64,000 bases of DNA, taken from the NCBI RefSeq assembly GCF_000092505.1, contig NC_014136.1, forward strand, positions 863,501 through 927,500, read 5' to 3'. The stretch is from Leuconostoc kimchii IMSNU 11154. GTDB lineage: Bacteria; Bacillota; Bacilli; Lactobacillales; Lactobacillaceae. The translations under genes and the position numbers were made by a program. The notes beneath the pieces were generated by a model. The model saw only the letters and a list, made by a program, of their open reading frames with translations, searched no databases and was not told the origin of the DNA. Each line of letters starts with the position of its first letter. The stretch's first letter is position 1. This document shows, one piece after another, positions 38,316 to 61,277 of this stretch.

Positions 38316-38321
38316 ATTCAA

Positions 38322-38543
38322 GTTATCAAAGAGGTTGCAACCAACATAAATCGCGTAAATGAGCCTGCCATGGGCGTTGAGGTTACGTTAAAGGGGCGGT
38401 TGCCGAAATAACATTCTTGGCAAAATGTTATTGGGCTAATAATTAATAGTTGTTAGACTGTCACGGCAGCGTGGTGTGCTTTGAAAAGTTGATGATATAA
38501 TGACTTTTTAAACCTCTTTCTATGTGTTAGAAAGGGGCTTTTT
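38322..38543 (+). ncRNA. lysine riboswitch (L-box) with terminator
   Basis: Conserved L-box blocks occur in order: AGAGGTTGC (38330), AAAGGGGC (38390), GCCGAAA (38402), TTGGGCT (38431) and ACTGTCAC (38457). The intrinsic terminator CCTCTTTCTA / TAGAAAGGGG (38513-38537) plus a T-run lies just before lysP. With lysine bound, termination should reduce permease expression. Confidence 0.88.
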
Positions 38544-42648: not shown

Positions 42649-42974
42649 CAATATAAACGTTGAAAAGATAAGTACTTTGTATCGTCTTGATAGAGAGCTC
42701 GTGATAGGTGAAAGCGAGTAAGACGGTGGATCGGAAAATGGTCTTGGAGTTTCTCACCGATACGAGCAAACGGACACTCATATGTGTCACGTGTAAGTTA
42801 AGGACGGGTGTTTCCGTTAGCAAACAACGTATAACCGATAATTGCTACAGATGTTCTCGAAGGTAGTTAAAGGCGTACGTTTGAAGGTATATATGCGAGA
42901 GCTCTATACAAAGACCGGGTGGTAACACGTCATTTAACGTCCCGTAGTATCGATTGATACTACGGGATTTTTTG
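42649..42974 (+). ncRNA. T-box leader (probably tRNA-Met responsive)
   Basis: AGTA (42671-42674) sits in the Stem I position. The T-box core ACCGGGTGGTAACACG (42914-42929) is followed by the terminator CCCGTAGTATC / GATACTACGGG with a T6 tail (42941-42973). The gene downstream is MetE-like, and Lactobacillales are known to use Met-T-boxes for methionine genes. I could not place the specifier codon with certainty. Confidence 0.85.
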
Positions 42975-56312: not shown

Positions 56313-56350
56313 AACGTAGTTGGAATTTTCCAACTACGTTTTTATTTTAT
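56313..56350. terminator. bidirectional terminator
   Basis: AAAAACGTAGTTGGAA / TTCCAACTACGTTTTT with loop TT. It serves the GNAT gene and the convergent permease. Confidence 0.85.
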
Positions 56351-57747
56351 GATAGTTTTGAATGACGGATACCATAAGCAAAGTACCAGATAATACCCAG
56401 AACTAACCAAACACTAAATAATTCTAGTGTTTCTACAGGTAATTTTGTAATCAGTAGTAAACTGATCACGCCTGCAACAAGTGGGACTAAAGGATAACCG
56501 GGTACTTTAAAGCCATCATGTGATAAATCTTTTCGACGGCGCAATATTAGGATGCCGAAGTTAATAAACATGAAGGCCAATAATGTGCCAGCATTAATTA
56601 GGCTAGCTAATGTGTTCAACGGGATTAGGCCAGCAAAAATGGATTCAACAATCACAGCAAGAATTAATGCGTTCACTGGTAACCGTGATCCTCCTGATAT
56701 CTTACCCAAGCCACGTGGTAGTAGGCCATCACGACCAAATGAGTAGGTGAGTCGCGATGACGCATAAACCAGCGCTAGAATAGCGGTGAACATACCAACA
56801 AGAGCCCCTACGGTAATAACAACAGAGAATTGTGTTTGGTGAATAGCTTGTAGAGCAAACGCAGCAGGGTCATCAACGCCAAGTTTTTTGTAGTTCACGA
56901 TACCTGTTAGAACGATTGAGAACAGGACGTAAAGTAAGGCTGAAATAATAACTGTGCCGATAATACCACGAGCCATTGTTTTTTGTGGGTTTTTCACTTC
57001 GGCAGCATGTGCGGCAATTGTATCAAATCCGAGAAAGGCAAAGATAATACTGGCAGTAGCTGCCCATATACCATTTAAACCACCAAAACCAGAATGGAAT
57101 TCTTTAGGATAAAAGGGGACGTAATTTGTATGTTTAATGAAAAATGAGCCACCGATAATAAATAAGGCGAGAATGACAACTTTTAAGATTACAGCACCAT
57201 TTTCAATTTTTTTGGAAGCATTTAAACCGCGTGATAAAATAACAGTAACTAGCAAGATGATTAAGACGGCAAATAAATTAACAATACCACCTTCCATTGG
57301 ACCGGCGAGTAAAGACTTTGGTATATGAATACCAAATGTGATTAATAGATTATTCAGATAAGCAGAAAAACCAGTAGCAATAGCGGAAACGGCTAGAAAA
57401 TATTCCAAAATTAAAGACCAACCAAGTAACCAGCCAATAATTTCGCCATAAACAACTGTACCATAAGAATACGCGGATCCAGCAACAGGCATGGCGGATG
57501 AAAATTCAGCAAATGCCATACCTGATAACCCTGAAAATATAGCGGCAATTAAGAATGCAACAGATACGGCCGGTCCTGCATTCTGCGCAGCTTCATGGCC
57601 TGGTAAAATAAATATACCGGTACCAATGACTGTGCCAACGCCTAAGCCAATCAAATCTCTTGTTGTTAAAACACGTGTCATATGAGAATCTGCTTGTATA
57701 TAACTATCAACAGATTCTCGTTTAAATGCTCTCGAAAAGATGGACAT
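56347..57747 (-). CDS. APC-superfamily amino acid permease (YfnA/CAT-like)
   Basis: A 466-residue transporter with about 12 TM helices. The first-helix motif GLGVGTVIGTGIFILPG and SSAMPVAGSAYSYGTVVYGE place it in the cationic amino acid transporter branch, as does FLGFDTIAAHAAEVKNPQKTMARGI. B. subtilis YfnA-type members transport branched-chain or other neutral amino acids, so specificity is open. GGGAG precedes ATG. It is monocistronic. Confidence 0.88.
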   Translation of the reverse strand: MSIFSRAFKRESVDSYIQADSHMTRVLTTRDLIGLGVGTVIGTGIFILPGHEAAQNAGPAVSVAFLIAAIFSGLSGMAFAEFSSAMPVAGSAYSYGTVVYGEIIGWLLGWSLILEYFLAVSAIATGFSAYLNNLLITFGIHIPKSLLAGPMEGGIVNLFAVLIILLVTVILSRGLNASKKIENGAVILKVVILALFIIGGSFFIKHTNYVPFYPKEFHSGFGGLNGIWAATASIIFAFLGFDTIAAHAAEVKNPQKTMARGIIGTVIISALLYVLFSIVLTGIVNYKKLGVDDPAAFALQAIHQTQFSVVITVGALVGMFTAILALVYASSRLTYSFGRDGLLPRGLGKISGGSRLPVNALILAVIVESIFAGLIPLNTLASLINAGTLLAFMFINFGILILRRRKDLSHDGFKVPGYPLVPLVAGVISLLLITKLPVETLELFSVWLVLGIIWYFAYGIRHSKLS

Positions 57748-57867: not shown

Positions 57868-58449
57868 ATGAAAAACAATAAGGTCTTTGTAATTACAGGC
57901 GCAACTGGTGTCGGTAAGACAACAATTGCACGATATTTACAAGATAATTATCGTATGCCACGCGTTATTACCCATACAACGCGTGCACCTCGTGATAGAG
58001 AAATGGATGGCGTGTCCTATTATTTCGAGAACGAGGTTTCTTTTGAAAAGAAACACTTTCTGGAACGTGTGACATATGCAGGTTCACAATATGGTTCTTC
58101 TTATGAAGGTCTTGAGCTAGCGTGGCAAAAAAATCCATACATTACTATCGTATTGGACACTGCTGGTGCAATTACCTACGCCAAAGAGTTGGGGGAGCAA
58201 GCGATCATTATTTTTGTGACTGTTACTAGCCCTGACGTTTTAGTGGAACGGGTACAAGTGCGCGGGGATGATCCTACTGCTGTTAAGCAACGGGTCTCGT
58301 CACCTGAATTCTTGCGTGATGTCACGTTACCAACTGCATTGCAACATATCGCCTATGAACTAGAGAATGATGACTGGTCACGTACTAAGGTCCGGCTTGA
58401 TCTATTAGTCAATGATATTATGAACGGGCGTAGCATTCCTCAAAAGTGA
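57868..58449 (+). CDS. guanylate-kinase family protein
   Basis: A 193-residue P-loop protein with Walker A GATGVGKTT, the GMP-binding pattern TTRAPRDREMDGVSYYF (family TTRxPRxGExxGxxYxF) and an adenine-binding region in VTSPDVLVERVQVRGDD. It lacks the Ser of the usual GPSGxGK loop and is less basic near the lid, so it is probably a second GMK paralogue. The housekeeping gmk normally sits with rpoZ/priA, not here. The weak site AAGGAATGAAGG precedes the ATG. Confidence 0.75.
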   Translation: MKNNKVFVITGATGVGKTTIARYLQDNYRMPRVITHTTRAPRDREMDGVSYYFENEVSFEKKHFLERVTYAGSQYGSSYEGLELAWQKNPYITIVLDTAGAITYAKELGEQAIIIFVTVTSPDVLVERVQVRGDDPTAVKQRVSSPEFLRDVTLPTALQHIAYELENDDWSRTKVRLDLLVNDIMNGRSIPQK

Positions 58450-58573
58450 CCGCTTTTGAGGAATGGTACATAGTTCAATTTTATGCTAGAACTACTACGT
58501 TATAATTTTTATTTGACAAATACATTAAAAAATATTATAATTATCTCATAAAAAAATTGAAGGTTTTTAACAA

Positions 58574-58630
58574 ATGACAAACATGTGTAAAAAAAATTCA
58601 AATCAATTTTACTTTTGGTATTTCGGGTAG
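58574..58630 (+). CDS. 18-residue aromatic leader peptide
   Basis: The ORF reads MTNMCKKNSNQFYFWYFG and stops at TAG 58628. Residues 12-17 are F-Y-F-W-Y-F, six aromatic codons in a row. GAAGG lies about 10 nt before the ATG. It is placed directly before a set of alternative RNA helices and the araT gene, so its role is to sense charged Phe/Tyr/Trp tRNA by ribosome stalling. The peptide itself is unlikely to have another function. Confidence 0.85.
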   Translation: MTNMCKKNSNQFYFWYFG

Positions 58631-58748
58631 CCCTCTGATTACCAAAAGCATTTTGCAGTGGTATTTAGATGGTAACAGACATCGAATGCCGCAGTGAGTT
58701 CAGCTATAGAACTAACGCACATTCGGAATGGTCCGTATGTGCGTTTTT
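58612..58748 (+). promoter_or_regulatory. translation-controlled transcription attenuator for araT
   Basis: Helix 1:2 is CTTTTGGTA (58612-58620, over the Tyr-Phe-Trp-Tyr codons) with TACCAAAAG (58640-58648). Alternative 2:3 is TACCA (58640-58644) with TGGTA (58659-58663). Helix 3:4 is GGTATT (58660-58665) with AATGCC (58685-58690), plus inner GATG/CATC. Antiterminator 4:5 is CGAATG (58683-58688) with CATTCG (58720-58725), enclosing AGTTC/GAACT. Terminator 5:6 is ACGCACAT-T-CGGA with TCCG-T-ATGTGCGT plus T5 (58715-58748). Stalling on aromatic codons favours 2:3 and 4:5, allowing readthrough. Confidence 0.8.
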
Positions 58749-58775
58749 GTTAGATTAGAATGTAGGAGAAAAAAT

Positions 58776-59972
58776 ATGCCCGTAGCAAAACAAACACTAT
58801 TATCAGGATTGAATCATAATTTGGCGCGTGTGCAACCAAGTGCCATTCGTGCTTTTGATAATGAAGTCAGCGCGATTCCTGGTATTTTAAAGTTAACACT
58901 TGGTGAACCAGACTTTAATGTGCCAGAGCACATCAAACAGGCTGCTGTAAAGTCAATTTTAGAAAATGATTCACACTATGCAGCTTCAAATGGGACACTG
59001 GCGGTTCGTCAAGCGGCAACGCATTTCTTAAAGGATCGTTATGATGTCACCTATGATGCAGAAAGTGAGATCATTGTAACAGTTGGCGCCACAGAAGCCA
59101 TCTATACTGTACTTACGTCGCTATTAAACAAAGGTGATAAGGTCATATTACCAACGCCAATTTTCCCCCTATACATTCCTATTACACTGGTTGGCGGTGG
59201 CGAGCCGGTATTCGTTGATACATCAAGTAACGATTTTGTTTTGAGTCCGGAAATGTTAAAGGAAGCCATTAAAACGCATGGGGAGAGTATTAAAGCTATT
59301 GTATTAAACTTTCCTTCAAATCCAACAGGTGTAACGTATAGTGCACAAGAAATTCAGGCACTCGCTGATGTCTTGCGTGACACAAATATTGTCATTATTT
59401 CAGACGAAATATATTCCGAACTGACTTATGAAACAACGCATGTGTCGATGGCTAAGTACTTACCGGAACAAACAATTATTTTAAATGGCGTATCTAAGTC
59501 GCATGCAATGACCGGCTATCGAATTGGCTTTTTAGCAGCACCAGCCGAGTTAGTGACCAAGTTTAGTCTTATTCACCAATTCACCATTACAACAGCTAAT
59601 AACACTGCTATGGCTGCGGCAGCCGAAGCATTAGGAACTGAAACTGGCCGTCAAGATACACTGACGATGAAAGCTGCTTATCAGGAACGTCGTGACTTTG
59701 TTTATCAAACGATGACGAACTTAGGATTTAAAATACCAAAACCAGCAGGTGCTTTTTATATTTTTGCTAAAATACCAGCAGGTTATCATCAGAATGATGT
59801 TGAATTCGCACGTGATTTGGCATTCAAAAACAAGCTTGCGGTAGTACCAGGGAGTGCTTTTGGTCCAGGGGGTGAGGGATATATTCGATTAAGCTATGCG
59901 GCCTCGTTAGCAACTTTGCAAGAGGCAATGTCAAGATTGAGTGACTACCTTCAGGATAATCGAATCATCTAA
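58776..59972 (+). CDS. araT: aromatic amino acid aminotransferase (AraT-like)
   Basis: PLP class I aminotransferase of 398 residues. It converts Phe, Tyr or Trp to the 2-oxoacids, or makes them from arogenate-pathway precursors. The PLP Schiff-base lysine is K241 in NGVSKSHAMTGYRIGF. TLGEPDFNVPEH, VTVGATEAIY, FPSNPTGVTYS and SDEIYSELTY closely follow Lactococcus AraT. The DapX/PatA-type aminotransferases share these motifs; the aromatic leader peptide upstream decides for an aromatic substrate. The start is ATG 58776 with GTAGGAG upstream; the frame is open to 58728, but that part is the terminator. Confidence 0.9.
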   Translation: MPVAKQTLLSGLNHNLARVQPSAIRAFDNEVSAIPGILKLTLGEPDFNVPEHIKQAAVKSILENDSHYAASNGTLAVRQAATHFLKDRYDVTYDAESEIIVTVGATEAIYTVLTSLLNKGDKVILPTPIFPLYIPITLVGGGEPVFVDTSSNDFVLSPEMLKEAIKTHGESIKAIVLNFPSNPTGVTYSAQEIQALADVLRDTNIVIISDEIYSELTYETTHVSMAKYLPEQTIILNGVSKSHAMTGYRIGFLAAPAELVTKFSLIHQFTITTANNTAMAAAAEALGTETGRQDTLTMKAAYQERRDFVYQTMTNLGFKIPKPAGAFYIFAKIPAGYHQNDVEFARDLAFKNKLAVVPGSAFGPGGEGYIRLSYAASLATLQEAMSRLSDYLQDNRII

Positions 59973-60194: not shown

Positions 60195-61277
60195 ATGAAT
60201 AGAAGGATACGAAACACAGTAGAAACTATGCATAACACGCCATCATATCGTGTTCGAAAGTTTGTTGTCAAAGTTTTAAATGGTACGAGTTTGGGGATTG
60301 TCATTACATTAATACCCAGTGCTTTAGTTAGTCAGTTGCTTTTGTTATTTGCGGGAAATCCTGTGGCAGCTAAAGTTGCTTTCATGACGACACTTATTCA
60401 GAGCACCTTACCACTTGTGGCTGGTTTTGCTGTCGGACAAATTTTTAAATTGTCATCAATTGATTCAGGTTCTATTGCACTAGCTATGTTTGTATCATCA
60501 GCTGTTGTTACACAAGCAAAAGATGGCATGGTTATAGCTGGTACTGGTGTTATCTTAAATATTTTACTTATTGCAGTTATTGCAACAGCACTTGTTAAGT
60601 TGACAGAAAATATATTTGGTCACTTGAAAATGTTATTACAACCCTTAGTTGTTTTAATTGTTGCGGGTGGTATTGGGTTAGCAACGCTAGACCCATTGCG
60701 TCAAGTTCAGGTGTTTATTGGTACGACAATCGCATATGCAACAGAATTTACCCCAATAGTTCTGGGTGCAGTTCTTGGTGGTACTTTTGCATTTTTAATT
60801 GTTTCACCATTGTCGTCGGTAGGTATTGCGATGGCCATAAATTTGACAGGCATCGGGTCGGGTGCTGCTAATGCAGGCATCGTCGTTGCTAGTTTTACCT
60901 TAGCCGCAATGGGTGCACAAGTAAATCCTATTGGTGGCACTTTGGCACATTTTATTGGTTCCCCTAAAATACAGATGGCTAACATGTTAACAAAGCCAAA
61001 ACTATTTATTCCCACAACAATCGGTGCTATGATGATGGGTGTCGTGGCAACACTTTTCAATATTAAAGGGACGCCGGCTTCAGCTGGGTTTGGCTTTTCA
61101 GGATTAATTGGACCCTTAACTGCATTTAATTTATCAGATAAATCAGTCAGCGCTGTATTTAGTGTTTTGATTACATTCATTGTCTTGCCTATTATATTGG
61201 CGTTTTTCCTAAAATGGTTATTTATGACAAGATTTAAGTTGATTCGACCGGATGATTTGAAATTAACGTTACAATAA
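60195..61277 (+). CDS. PTS-type EIIC-like membrane transporter (PF13303)
   Basis: A 360-residue membrane protein with about 10 TM helices. Segments LNGTSLGIVITLIPSALVSQLL, SPLSSVGIAMAINLTGIGSGAANAGIVVASFTLAAMGAQVNPIGGTLAHFIGSPKIQMAN and GFGFSGLIGPLTAF are the EIIC_2 family pattern. No EIIA/EIIB partner is encoded nearby, so it may work with other PTS proteins or as a non-phosphorylating carrier. The substrate is unknown. GAGGG precedes ATG. Confidence 0.8.
   Translation: MNRRIRNTVETMHNTPSYRVRKFVVKVLNGTSLGIVITLIPSALVSQLLLLFAGNPVAAKVAFMTTLIQSTLPLVAGFAVGQIFKLSSIDSGSIALAMFVSSAVVTQAKDGMVIAGTGVILNILLIAVIATALVKLTENIFGHLKMLLQPLVVLIVAGGIGLATLDPLRQVQVFIGTTIAYATEFTPIVLGAVLGGTFAFLIVSPLSSVGIAMAINLTGIGSGAANAGIVVASFTLAAMGAQVNPIGGTLAHFIGSPKIQMANMLTKPKLFIPTTIGAMMMGVVATLFNIKGTPASAGFGFSGLIGPLTAFNLSDKSVSAVFSVLITFIVLPIILAFFLKWLFMTRFKLIRPDDLKLTLQ

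Follow-up and report, generated by a model that had tools for sequence, protein, structure and literature searches.

An aromatic leader peptide predicted to control araT by transcription attenuation in Leuconostoc kimchii, and related leaders in Lactobacillales

Introduction

In the window, by which we mean the whole analysed stretch of 64,000 nucleotides of Leuconostoc kimchii IMSNU 11154, the leader of an araT-like aminotransferase gene is very probably a ribosome-mediated transcription attenuator. It combines an ORF, a promoter, covarying folds, codon conservation, a predicted positional response and linkage to aromatic genes, and we infer from these that ribosome stalling, termination and readthrough take place at the araT leader in the cell. 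By its mode of action it belongs with trp/his-type ribosome-mediated attenuation, within which it makes up a new family, and the surprise lies in the reach of the family, not in the principle. We consider it fairly probable that one homologous leader-peptide attenuator family forms an order-wide aromatic regulon in Lactobacillales, with proportions of Phe, Tyr and Trp codons that are adapted to the substrate of the respective target (araT, shikimate operon, TrpX-like, APC, PTS_EIIC_2), with sRNA_2410 and the gbs2033 element as its terminated leaders, and with PF13303 transporters carrying aromatic amino acids or hydroxy/keto acids. Leader-peptide attenuation is textbook knowledge for proteobacteria, and Lactobacillales are known for T-boxes. 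The family links genes by which aromatic amino acids are made, converted and imported. It would change the type of one Rfam sRNA and probably that of a published riboswitch as well, and its leader codons would give substrate predictions for poorly defined transporters. Moreover, it predicts control of an aromatic aminotransferase, an enzyme relevant to flavour compounds and to phenyllactic acid in food fermentations.

Results

The araT leader contains a short ORF with six aromatic codons

The araT-like class I aminotransferase gene, which is predicted to be the controlled gene, is located at 58776..59972 of the window on the plus strand, like all features of the leader described below. Its product matches NCBIfam PRK07309 with 561.5 bits, below the curated 576, and the best matches among solved structures are 4my5 (putative aminotransferase) as well as 1gd9 and 1dju (aromatic aminotransferase). 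For the region in front of this gene, an earlier note made from the sequence alone had claimed an 18-codon ORF with six successive aromatic codons at 58607-58624, and direct reading confirmed this base for base. The leader ORF MTNMCKKNSNQFYFWYFG plus TAG spans 58574..58630 (ATG 58574, TAG 58628-58630), ends with FYFWYFG and carries the six consecutive control codons TTT TAC TTT TGG TAT TTC (F Y F W Y F) at 58607..58624. By its sequence it could be translated into a short peptide, and its control codons correspond to the amino acids that the downstream enzyme is predicted to handle. The promoter TTGACA-17-TATAAT (58513..58541) agrees with the consensus in 12/12 positions, transcription would start near 58548 as judged from the -10 box, and TGAAGG (58558..58566) probably serves the leader ORF as ribosome binding site. 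A search of the plasmid collection with 58500-58780 gave no match.

AraT is present in 19/19 Leuconostoc genomes searched, the AraT of the window being 93% identical to that of L. rapi, and the 18-codon leader with its aromatic run is kept in 18/19 of them. All 18 genus leaders are 18 codons long, with the run variants FYFWYF (11), FYFKYF (4), YYFKYF (2) and FYFWCF (1), so that the fourth position of the run is Trp in 12 and Lys in 6. A promoter with 10-12/12 consensus matches and a spacing of 17 was found in 19/19 leaders (18 Leuconostoc and L031), and AAGG, GAGG or AGG ends 9-11 nt 5' of the leader ATG in 18/18 genus leaders. Loss of the ORF in relatives that keep the terminator had been named beforehand as the case that would speak against attenuation. 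The sole exception, L. carnosum (L012 = L058), touches on this case: ATG and aromatic run are lost and a terminator-like remnant is left, but this remnant is weaker than the terminator of the window folded alone (-9.9 vs -17.5 kcal/mol), and it looks like decay of the whole element.

The same remnant without an ORF is what could be expected if the region were a plain terminator of an unrelated transcript with a chance ORF beside it. This is extremely improbable, since the leader has its own consensus promoter and a covarying antiterminator, the ORF recurs in 18/19 genomes, and when 58450-58775 was dinucleotide-shuffled 5000 times, 0.06% of the shuffles had an ATG ORF of 8-45 codons with 6 successive aromatic codons. 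By the same criteria, 0.08 aromatic-run ORFs are found per shuffled 64-kb window on both strands.

The leader RNA can form two mutually exclusive folds

The leader comprises six segments that form five overlapping helices, alternating and with the terminator last, and this corresponds to a his-type six-segment relay. Segment 1 (58612..58620) forms 9 pairs with segment 2 (58640..58648), with 100% of cells paired and 3 double-changed pairs, and the stop codon of the leader lies in the loop of this helix 1:2, in agreement with the earlier claim that the ORF ends inside it. Segment 2 can alternatively pair via 58640-58645 with segment 3 (58658..58668), which uses 58658-58663 for segment 2 and 58660-58668 for segment 4 (58682..58690). 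Segment 4 pairs either with segment 3 or, via 58682-58688, with 58720-58726 of segment 5 (58714..58726), and segment 5 pairs either with segment 4 or with segment 6 (58733-58745). Together with its T tail, segment 6 is the 3' half of the intrinsic terminator (58733..58748), and 98.7% of cells are paired in 5:6, with 5 double-changed pairs. The 12-bp terminator with a T tail that had been described before was found as 12 pairs plus one T/T mismatch and a T run at 58744-58748; a consensus terminator scan listed none in the 58733-58748 region, probably owing to this mismatch. A small hairpin GTTC/GAAC between segments 4 and 5 (58698..58712) fits both folds and has double changes in 3/4 of its pairs. 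The fold of 58574-58760 is more stable than expected (z = -5.6), with 0/200 shuffles equally stable.

Alignment A1 consists of 18 leaders, namely 17 from Leuconostoc and the MAG locus L087, L007 being omitted because its leader is identical to that of L006. A conserved-helix search of A1 returned all five helices that had been proposed, together with an additional small hairpin and numerous pairings that were partial or due to chance. The terminator fold has 99.0% and the antiterminator fold 96.7% of cells paired, percentages that are inflated as the structures were derived from the same sequences. Double changes occur in 13/35 pairs of the terminator fold vs 4.9 in shuffles (0/500), and in 7/17 pairs of the antiterminator fold vs 2.5 in shuffles (0/500); on any of five measures, 0/500 shuffles were as high, and shifting the partner by 1-3 columns lets the pairing fall to 21-47%. 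The shared small hairpin supplies 3 double-changed pairs in each fold count, which leaves 2 in 2:3 and 2 in 4:5. Within A1, the most telling covariation evidence is given by columns with two partners. Column 41 covaries with column 13 (1:2) and column 56 (2:3), and both partners change along in six sequences; column 130 covaries with column 82 (4:5) and column 143 (5:6) in four sequences. Terminator and antiterminator fold are mutually exclusive and both conserved, and both pass the covariation check that the earlier note had suggested, although few evolutionary events stand behind the double changes: the Trp-to-Lys change is common to 6 related sequences and the column-130 change to 4.

T-boxes had been called the usual device for such genes in these bacteria, and this agrees with 27 T-box matches in this genome, of which 9 are above the cut-off. 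A T-box leader misread as a peptide leader would not be out of place in such a genome, but the T-box covariance model (RF00230), which finds a match at another place of the window, gives none at the araT leader. Furthermore, a search of Rfam with 58450-58800 up to E = 5 gave as sole match another family with E = 1.3, far below threshold, and the probability of a misread T-box is close to nil. With T-boxes and a predicted leader-peptide attenuator in one genome, both strategies would coexist.

The predicted fold responds to the position of the ribosome

According to the attenuation mechanism, the ribosome would reach the stop codon of the 18-codon leader and depart as long as charged Phe, Tyr and Trp tRNA is ample. 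With the ribosome gone, 1:2 and 3:4 would form, the free segment 5 would pair with segment 6 and transcription would end around position 58748. If charged aromatic tRNA runs short, the ribosome would halt on codons 12-17 and cover segment 1, leaving segment 2 exposed. Helix 2:3 would then form, segment 4 would be freed, and 4:5 would capture the 5' half of the terminator. Termination would be prevented in this way, and araT, perhaps also the transporter gene behind it, would be transcribed.

The switch was modelled by equilibrium folding, which leaves aside kinetics and tertiary contacts. With the RNA cut off behind segment 5, 3:4 prevails in 18/18 aligned leaders without masking, 4:5 in 12/18 (window included) when region 1 is masked, with 6/18 unflipped, and 3:4 is back in 18/18 when regions 1 and 2 are masked. 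For RNA ended after segment 3, 2:3 is formed in 18/18 leaders with region 1 masked and is already above 0.5 in 4/18 without masking. Since 2:3 is formed in 18/18 before segment 4 exists, the six non-flipping leaders may rely on the order of synthesis. The earlier proposal that masking of region 1 leads to 2:3 and then to 4:5 thus holds by predicted fold for 12/18 leaders, the window among them, but not for the remaining six.

A ribosome footprint of -12 to +15 from the P codon was walked along the leader of the window. P(4:5) rose from 0.04 with the A site on Q11 to 0.95, 0.98, 0.98, 1.00, 1.00 and 0.89 on codons 12-17 and fell to 0.09 on G18 and 0.01 on the stop codon. Six footprints were tried for the window; with +13, +14 and +15 the switch at P 0.5 is confined precisely to the aromatic codons, and with the other three its edges shift by one codon. 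When the 18 leaders are pooled, 54/100 aromatic codons vs 11/223 others (stop included) switch the fold. Per position, 7 to 12 of the 18 leaders switch at the six aromatic codons, 3/18 at the codon before and none at the codon after. One of the 18 favours 4:5 without a ribosome, and one with a ribosome at the stop codon. In the prediction, a stall on the control codons frees the antiterminator in 12/18 leaders, and a ribosome at the stop codon or no ribosome leads to the terminator.

Related leaders occur in many Lactobacillales

Model R1 was built from alignment A1. In its own genome it matched the araT leader, the antisense of its terminator (E 0.019) and one weak locus (E 0.118), which leaves a single clear copy. 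Matches at E <= 0.01 were obtained in 96/397 genomes of the window's family, and 40 lower-scoring loci fetched from this family contained an aromatic leader in 28 cases and none in 12, which were dropped. Across the order, R1 matched in 37/395 genomes, 20 of them outside the window's family; loci were read from 16 of these 20, with a leader in 9 and 7 dropped without an aromatic leader. Further AraT loci (L031-L091, n=61) had an aromatic leader in 32 cases and none in 29. Apart from L. carnosum, most of the 29 leaderless loci belong to more distant homologues or to paralogues, and among the 32 others 11 duplicate loci of the first genus set and L060 repeats L031.

Model R2, made from eight leaders from outside the window's family and L132, with ends like QLNNYYFSYFR, matched at E <= 0.001 in 247/395 genomes of the order and 59/80 sampled genera. 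An aromatic leader was present in 56 of 60 R2 loci read, which are mostly strong matches, 30 from the match list and 30 from 20 hand-picked genomes; dropped were L207 and L266 (near contig ends) and L262 and L264 (without aromatic leader). The core helix 1:2 of R2 is near-invariant, with double changes in 0/10 pairs, and for both R2 helices together the number of double-changed pairs is reached by 9/500 shuffles and that of pair types by 123/500. R2 thus rests more on sequence than on covariation. One alignment of ten trpX-type leaders recovered 1:2, 3:4, 4:5 and the terminator with extra hairpins 3' of the stop codon; 2:3 was not among the helices returned from these ten, and there were almost no double changes. 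For ten aroE-type leaders the downstream part aligns less clearly. The two types are probably homologous, as they have the core sequence in common and the models match across them. The start codons of some leaders are the choice of the parser, as in L217, which is listed with TTG and has a more probable start in an inner ATG.

Directly outside helix 1:2 stands a codon that is aromatic in 34/38 distinct leaders, with Phe/Tyr swaps, vs 4/38 and 2/38 for the next two codons, figures that choice of loci favours because R2 spans these columns. That the aromatic run is merely demanded by helix 1:2 was considered as well and rejected, as the codon outside the helix stays aromatic. The same codons bear on the question whether the leader is a metabolite-binding riboswitch with alternative folds in which the ORF is incidental, a reading given in a streptococcal study to the probably related element gbs2033 (PMC4448216). 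We regard it as very unlikely for the araT leader, as ORF and aromatic codons are conserved, Phe and Tyr replace one another outside the helix, and the predicted switch positions coincide with the aromatic codons.

In 44 leaders, e.g., L208, L210, L195 and L141, a Q-L-N (or K-L-N) motif precedes the aromatic run on its 5' side, and its Leu, Gln and Asn codons vary synonymously. The conservation of Q-L-N goes beyond what tRNA sensing alone explains, and it would fit an arrest peptide, in which the nascent aromatic chain senses the free amino acid in the ribosome tunnel. TnaC is such an arrest peptide and senses Trp in the ribosome tunnel. In the leaders described here, identity and number of the aromatic residues vary widely (FFFSFFR, YYSYYR, FYFKYF, FFSRYF), variation that known arrest peptides would hardly bear, and several A-site positions across the run all switch the model; an arrest peptide is therefore very unlikely.

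Leader codons differ between target genes

The pooled leaders come from 132 loci with 129 distinct sequences. Among the latter, 54 precede AraT genes, 39 genes for TrpX-like binding proteins, 15 AroE, 10 APC permease and 5 PTS_EIIC_2 genes, and 6 are unassigned, so that these five target types account for 123/129 leaders (one of the APC assignments is weak). The set was found by similarity to known members and is not a random sample. Behind four of the six unassigned leaders are one 3-dehydroquinate synthase-like protein, two SBP_bac_3 binding proteins and one CitMHS transporter; L137 is cut off by the end of its contig, and in L233 a transposase-like ORF was noted by eye. In L189 and L201, AroE is followed by a DAHP-synthase-like gene (by eye). 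The examples of AroE (TIGR00507) and PTS_EIIC_2 (Pfam) pass their cut-offs, whereas those of TrpX (296-354 vs 390), AraT (561.5 vs 576) and APC (531 vs 690) all score below the curated ones. L145 has a Phe-only leader, FFNFTFFG, with a transposase-like ORF shortly downstream (by eye) and a weak APC match (41 residues, E 1e-5).

Phe codons are present in 128/129 leaders and Tyr codons in 123/129, with Tyr and Trp counted over the whole peptide. A Trp codon is contained in 48/59 AraT or PTS_EIIC_2 leaders, 0/64 TrpX-like, AroE or APC leaders and 1/6 unassigned ones, a contrast for which shared ancestry voids the Fisher value as a probability. Counting only the last 12 residues, Trp is found in 46/59 AraT/PTS_EIIC_2 leaders, L134 and L135 being missed. 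Judged by this codon content, Phe and Tyr are the core signals, and Trp is an added signal in most araT- and PTS-type leaders. Of the three signals that had been proposed for the araT leader, Phe and Tyr thus stand as the core, but Trp is not essential, as the genus leaders with Lys in its place indicate. A leader reading all three aromatic residues at once had been called unusual, but leaders for several amino acids are in themselves no rarity, examples being the ilv and thr leaders of enterobacteria.

None of the 39 TrpX-like leaders holds a Trp codon. The leader of L244 has Phe only (FFFSFFR) and that of L260 Tyr only (YYSYYR), both before TrpX-like genes, and in each of the two genomes a TrpX-like paralogue has a mixed leader (L259 for L244, L241 for L260). 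The codon mix suggests that the leaders are tuned to the substrate of the target, and the differing leaders of TrpX-like paralogues may tell their substrates apart.

Comparison with known systems and earlier designations

The enterobacterial trp and phe (pheL) leaders have control codons for the amino acid that is the product of the operon, and the stalled ribosome selects the antiterminator. The araT leader resembles them in its short control-codon leader, the stop codon between segments 1 and 2 and the antiterminator predicted to be selected by a stall, but it differs by its mixed Phe-Tyr-Trp codons, by its predicted control of an aminotransferase instead of a biosynthetic operon and by its occurrence in lactic acid bacteria. 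With the attenuator of the his operon it shares, at the level of the fold, the six-segment relay of 1:2, 3:4 and 5:6 vs 2:3 and 4:5, and its codons are aromatic instead of His. Within Firmicutes, leader-peptide attenuation has been described for His leaders in bacilli and others (PMC2965389, PMC9413887), and a leucine-rich attenuator peptide for Staphylococcus aureus (PMC5794164). The principle is the same as for the araT leader, but amino acids and lineages are others. The trpX of Streptococcus suis is run by a Trp-specific T-box (PMC9382623). It is like the leader family in that a TrpX-type transporter is under a transcription attenuator and unlike it in being controlled by a T-box without a leader peptide, and therefore not every trpX of the order is run by the leader family.

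RF02863 (sRNA_2410, Enterococcus sRNA) scored above its gathering score in 8/20 loci of the leader family given to Rfam, and three more were below. The matches are L188, L132, L189, L208 and L231 (5/10 of the first batch) and L237, L239 and L241 (3/10 of the second). All eight precede TrpX-like or aroE genes, and L132, L239 and L241 are in the window's own family. RF02863 matched neither the window nor, up to E 0.01, L092, which holds the window's leader. E. faecium sRNA_2410 has a length of 195 nt and was detected as two transcripts (PMC5593968), and the words "leader", "attenuat-" and "shikimate" are absent from the main text of that paper. Unlike the araT leader, RF02863 is described as an sRNA; judging from the loci that it matches, which are leader-peptide attenuators by their sequence, it looks mis-typed.

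In S. agalactiae, RNA-seq revealed both long transcripts and short terminated ones upstream of two paralogous operons for ABC transporters (PMC4448216). The gbs2033 and gbs1262 elements were called putative aromatic riboswitches there, read as ligand-binding and as conserved in Lactobacillales, and the gbs2033 element has a relative before the aroFBC-tyrA operon of E. faecium (PMC4448216). The term "leader peptide" is absent from the main text of this study. Judged by targets and taxa, the gbs2033 "riboswitch" probably belongs to the leader-peptide family. A 2003 study on aromatic regulation in low-GC Gram-positives is cited in PMC2494555; in the open-licence literature, no description of a leader peptide for these aromatic genes was found.

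The neighbourhood of araT

A PTS_EIIC_2 (PF13303) gene at 60195..61277 on the plus strand is a conserved neighbour of araT, being downstream of it in 18/18 Leuconostoc loci whose sequence extends that far (L012 breaks off 266 bases past araT), and on the basis of this arrangement it is probably in the same regulon. Moreover, PTS_EIIC_2 genes are found directly behind an aromatic leader in L113, L115, L120, L123 and L150. As they adjoin araT or aromatic leaders, the encoded proteins are candidates for the transport of aromatic amino acids or of the corresponding hydroxy/keto acids. An ORF of about 330 codons lies between araT and PTS_EIIC_2 in nine loci read (L008, L010, L013, L014, L017, L060, L087, L038, L074); it is a D-2-hydroxyacid dehydrogenase in L008 (2690-3679), and the other eight are alike by eye. 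It is absent from the window and, by spacing, from L002-L007. A starvation-induced salvage route of import, oxidation and transamination of aromatic hydroxy/keto acids would fit this neighbourhood, which is speculation.

The window also contains a T-box leader at 42651-42947 and a lysine riboswitch at 38321-38489. A guanylate-kinase-like protein of 193 aa (57868-58449, below the curated cut-off) is encoded 5' of the leader in 19/19 Leuconostoc loci, and the divergent APC permease of the window (56347-57747) is 50-53% identical to leader-preceded APC permeases (L124-L131, L161).
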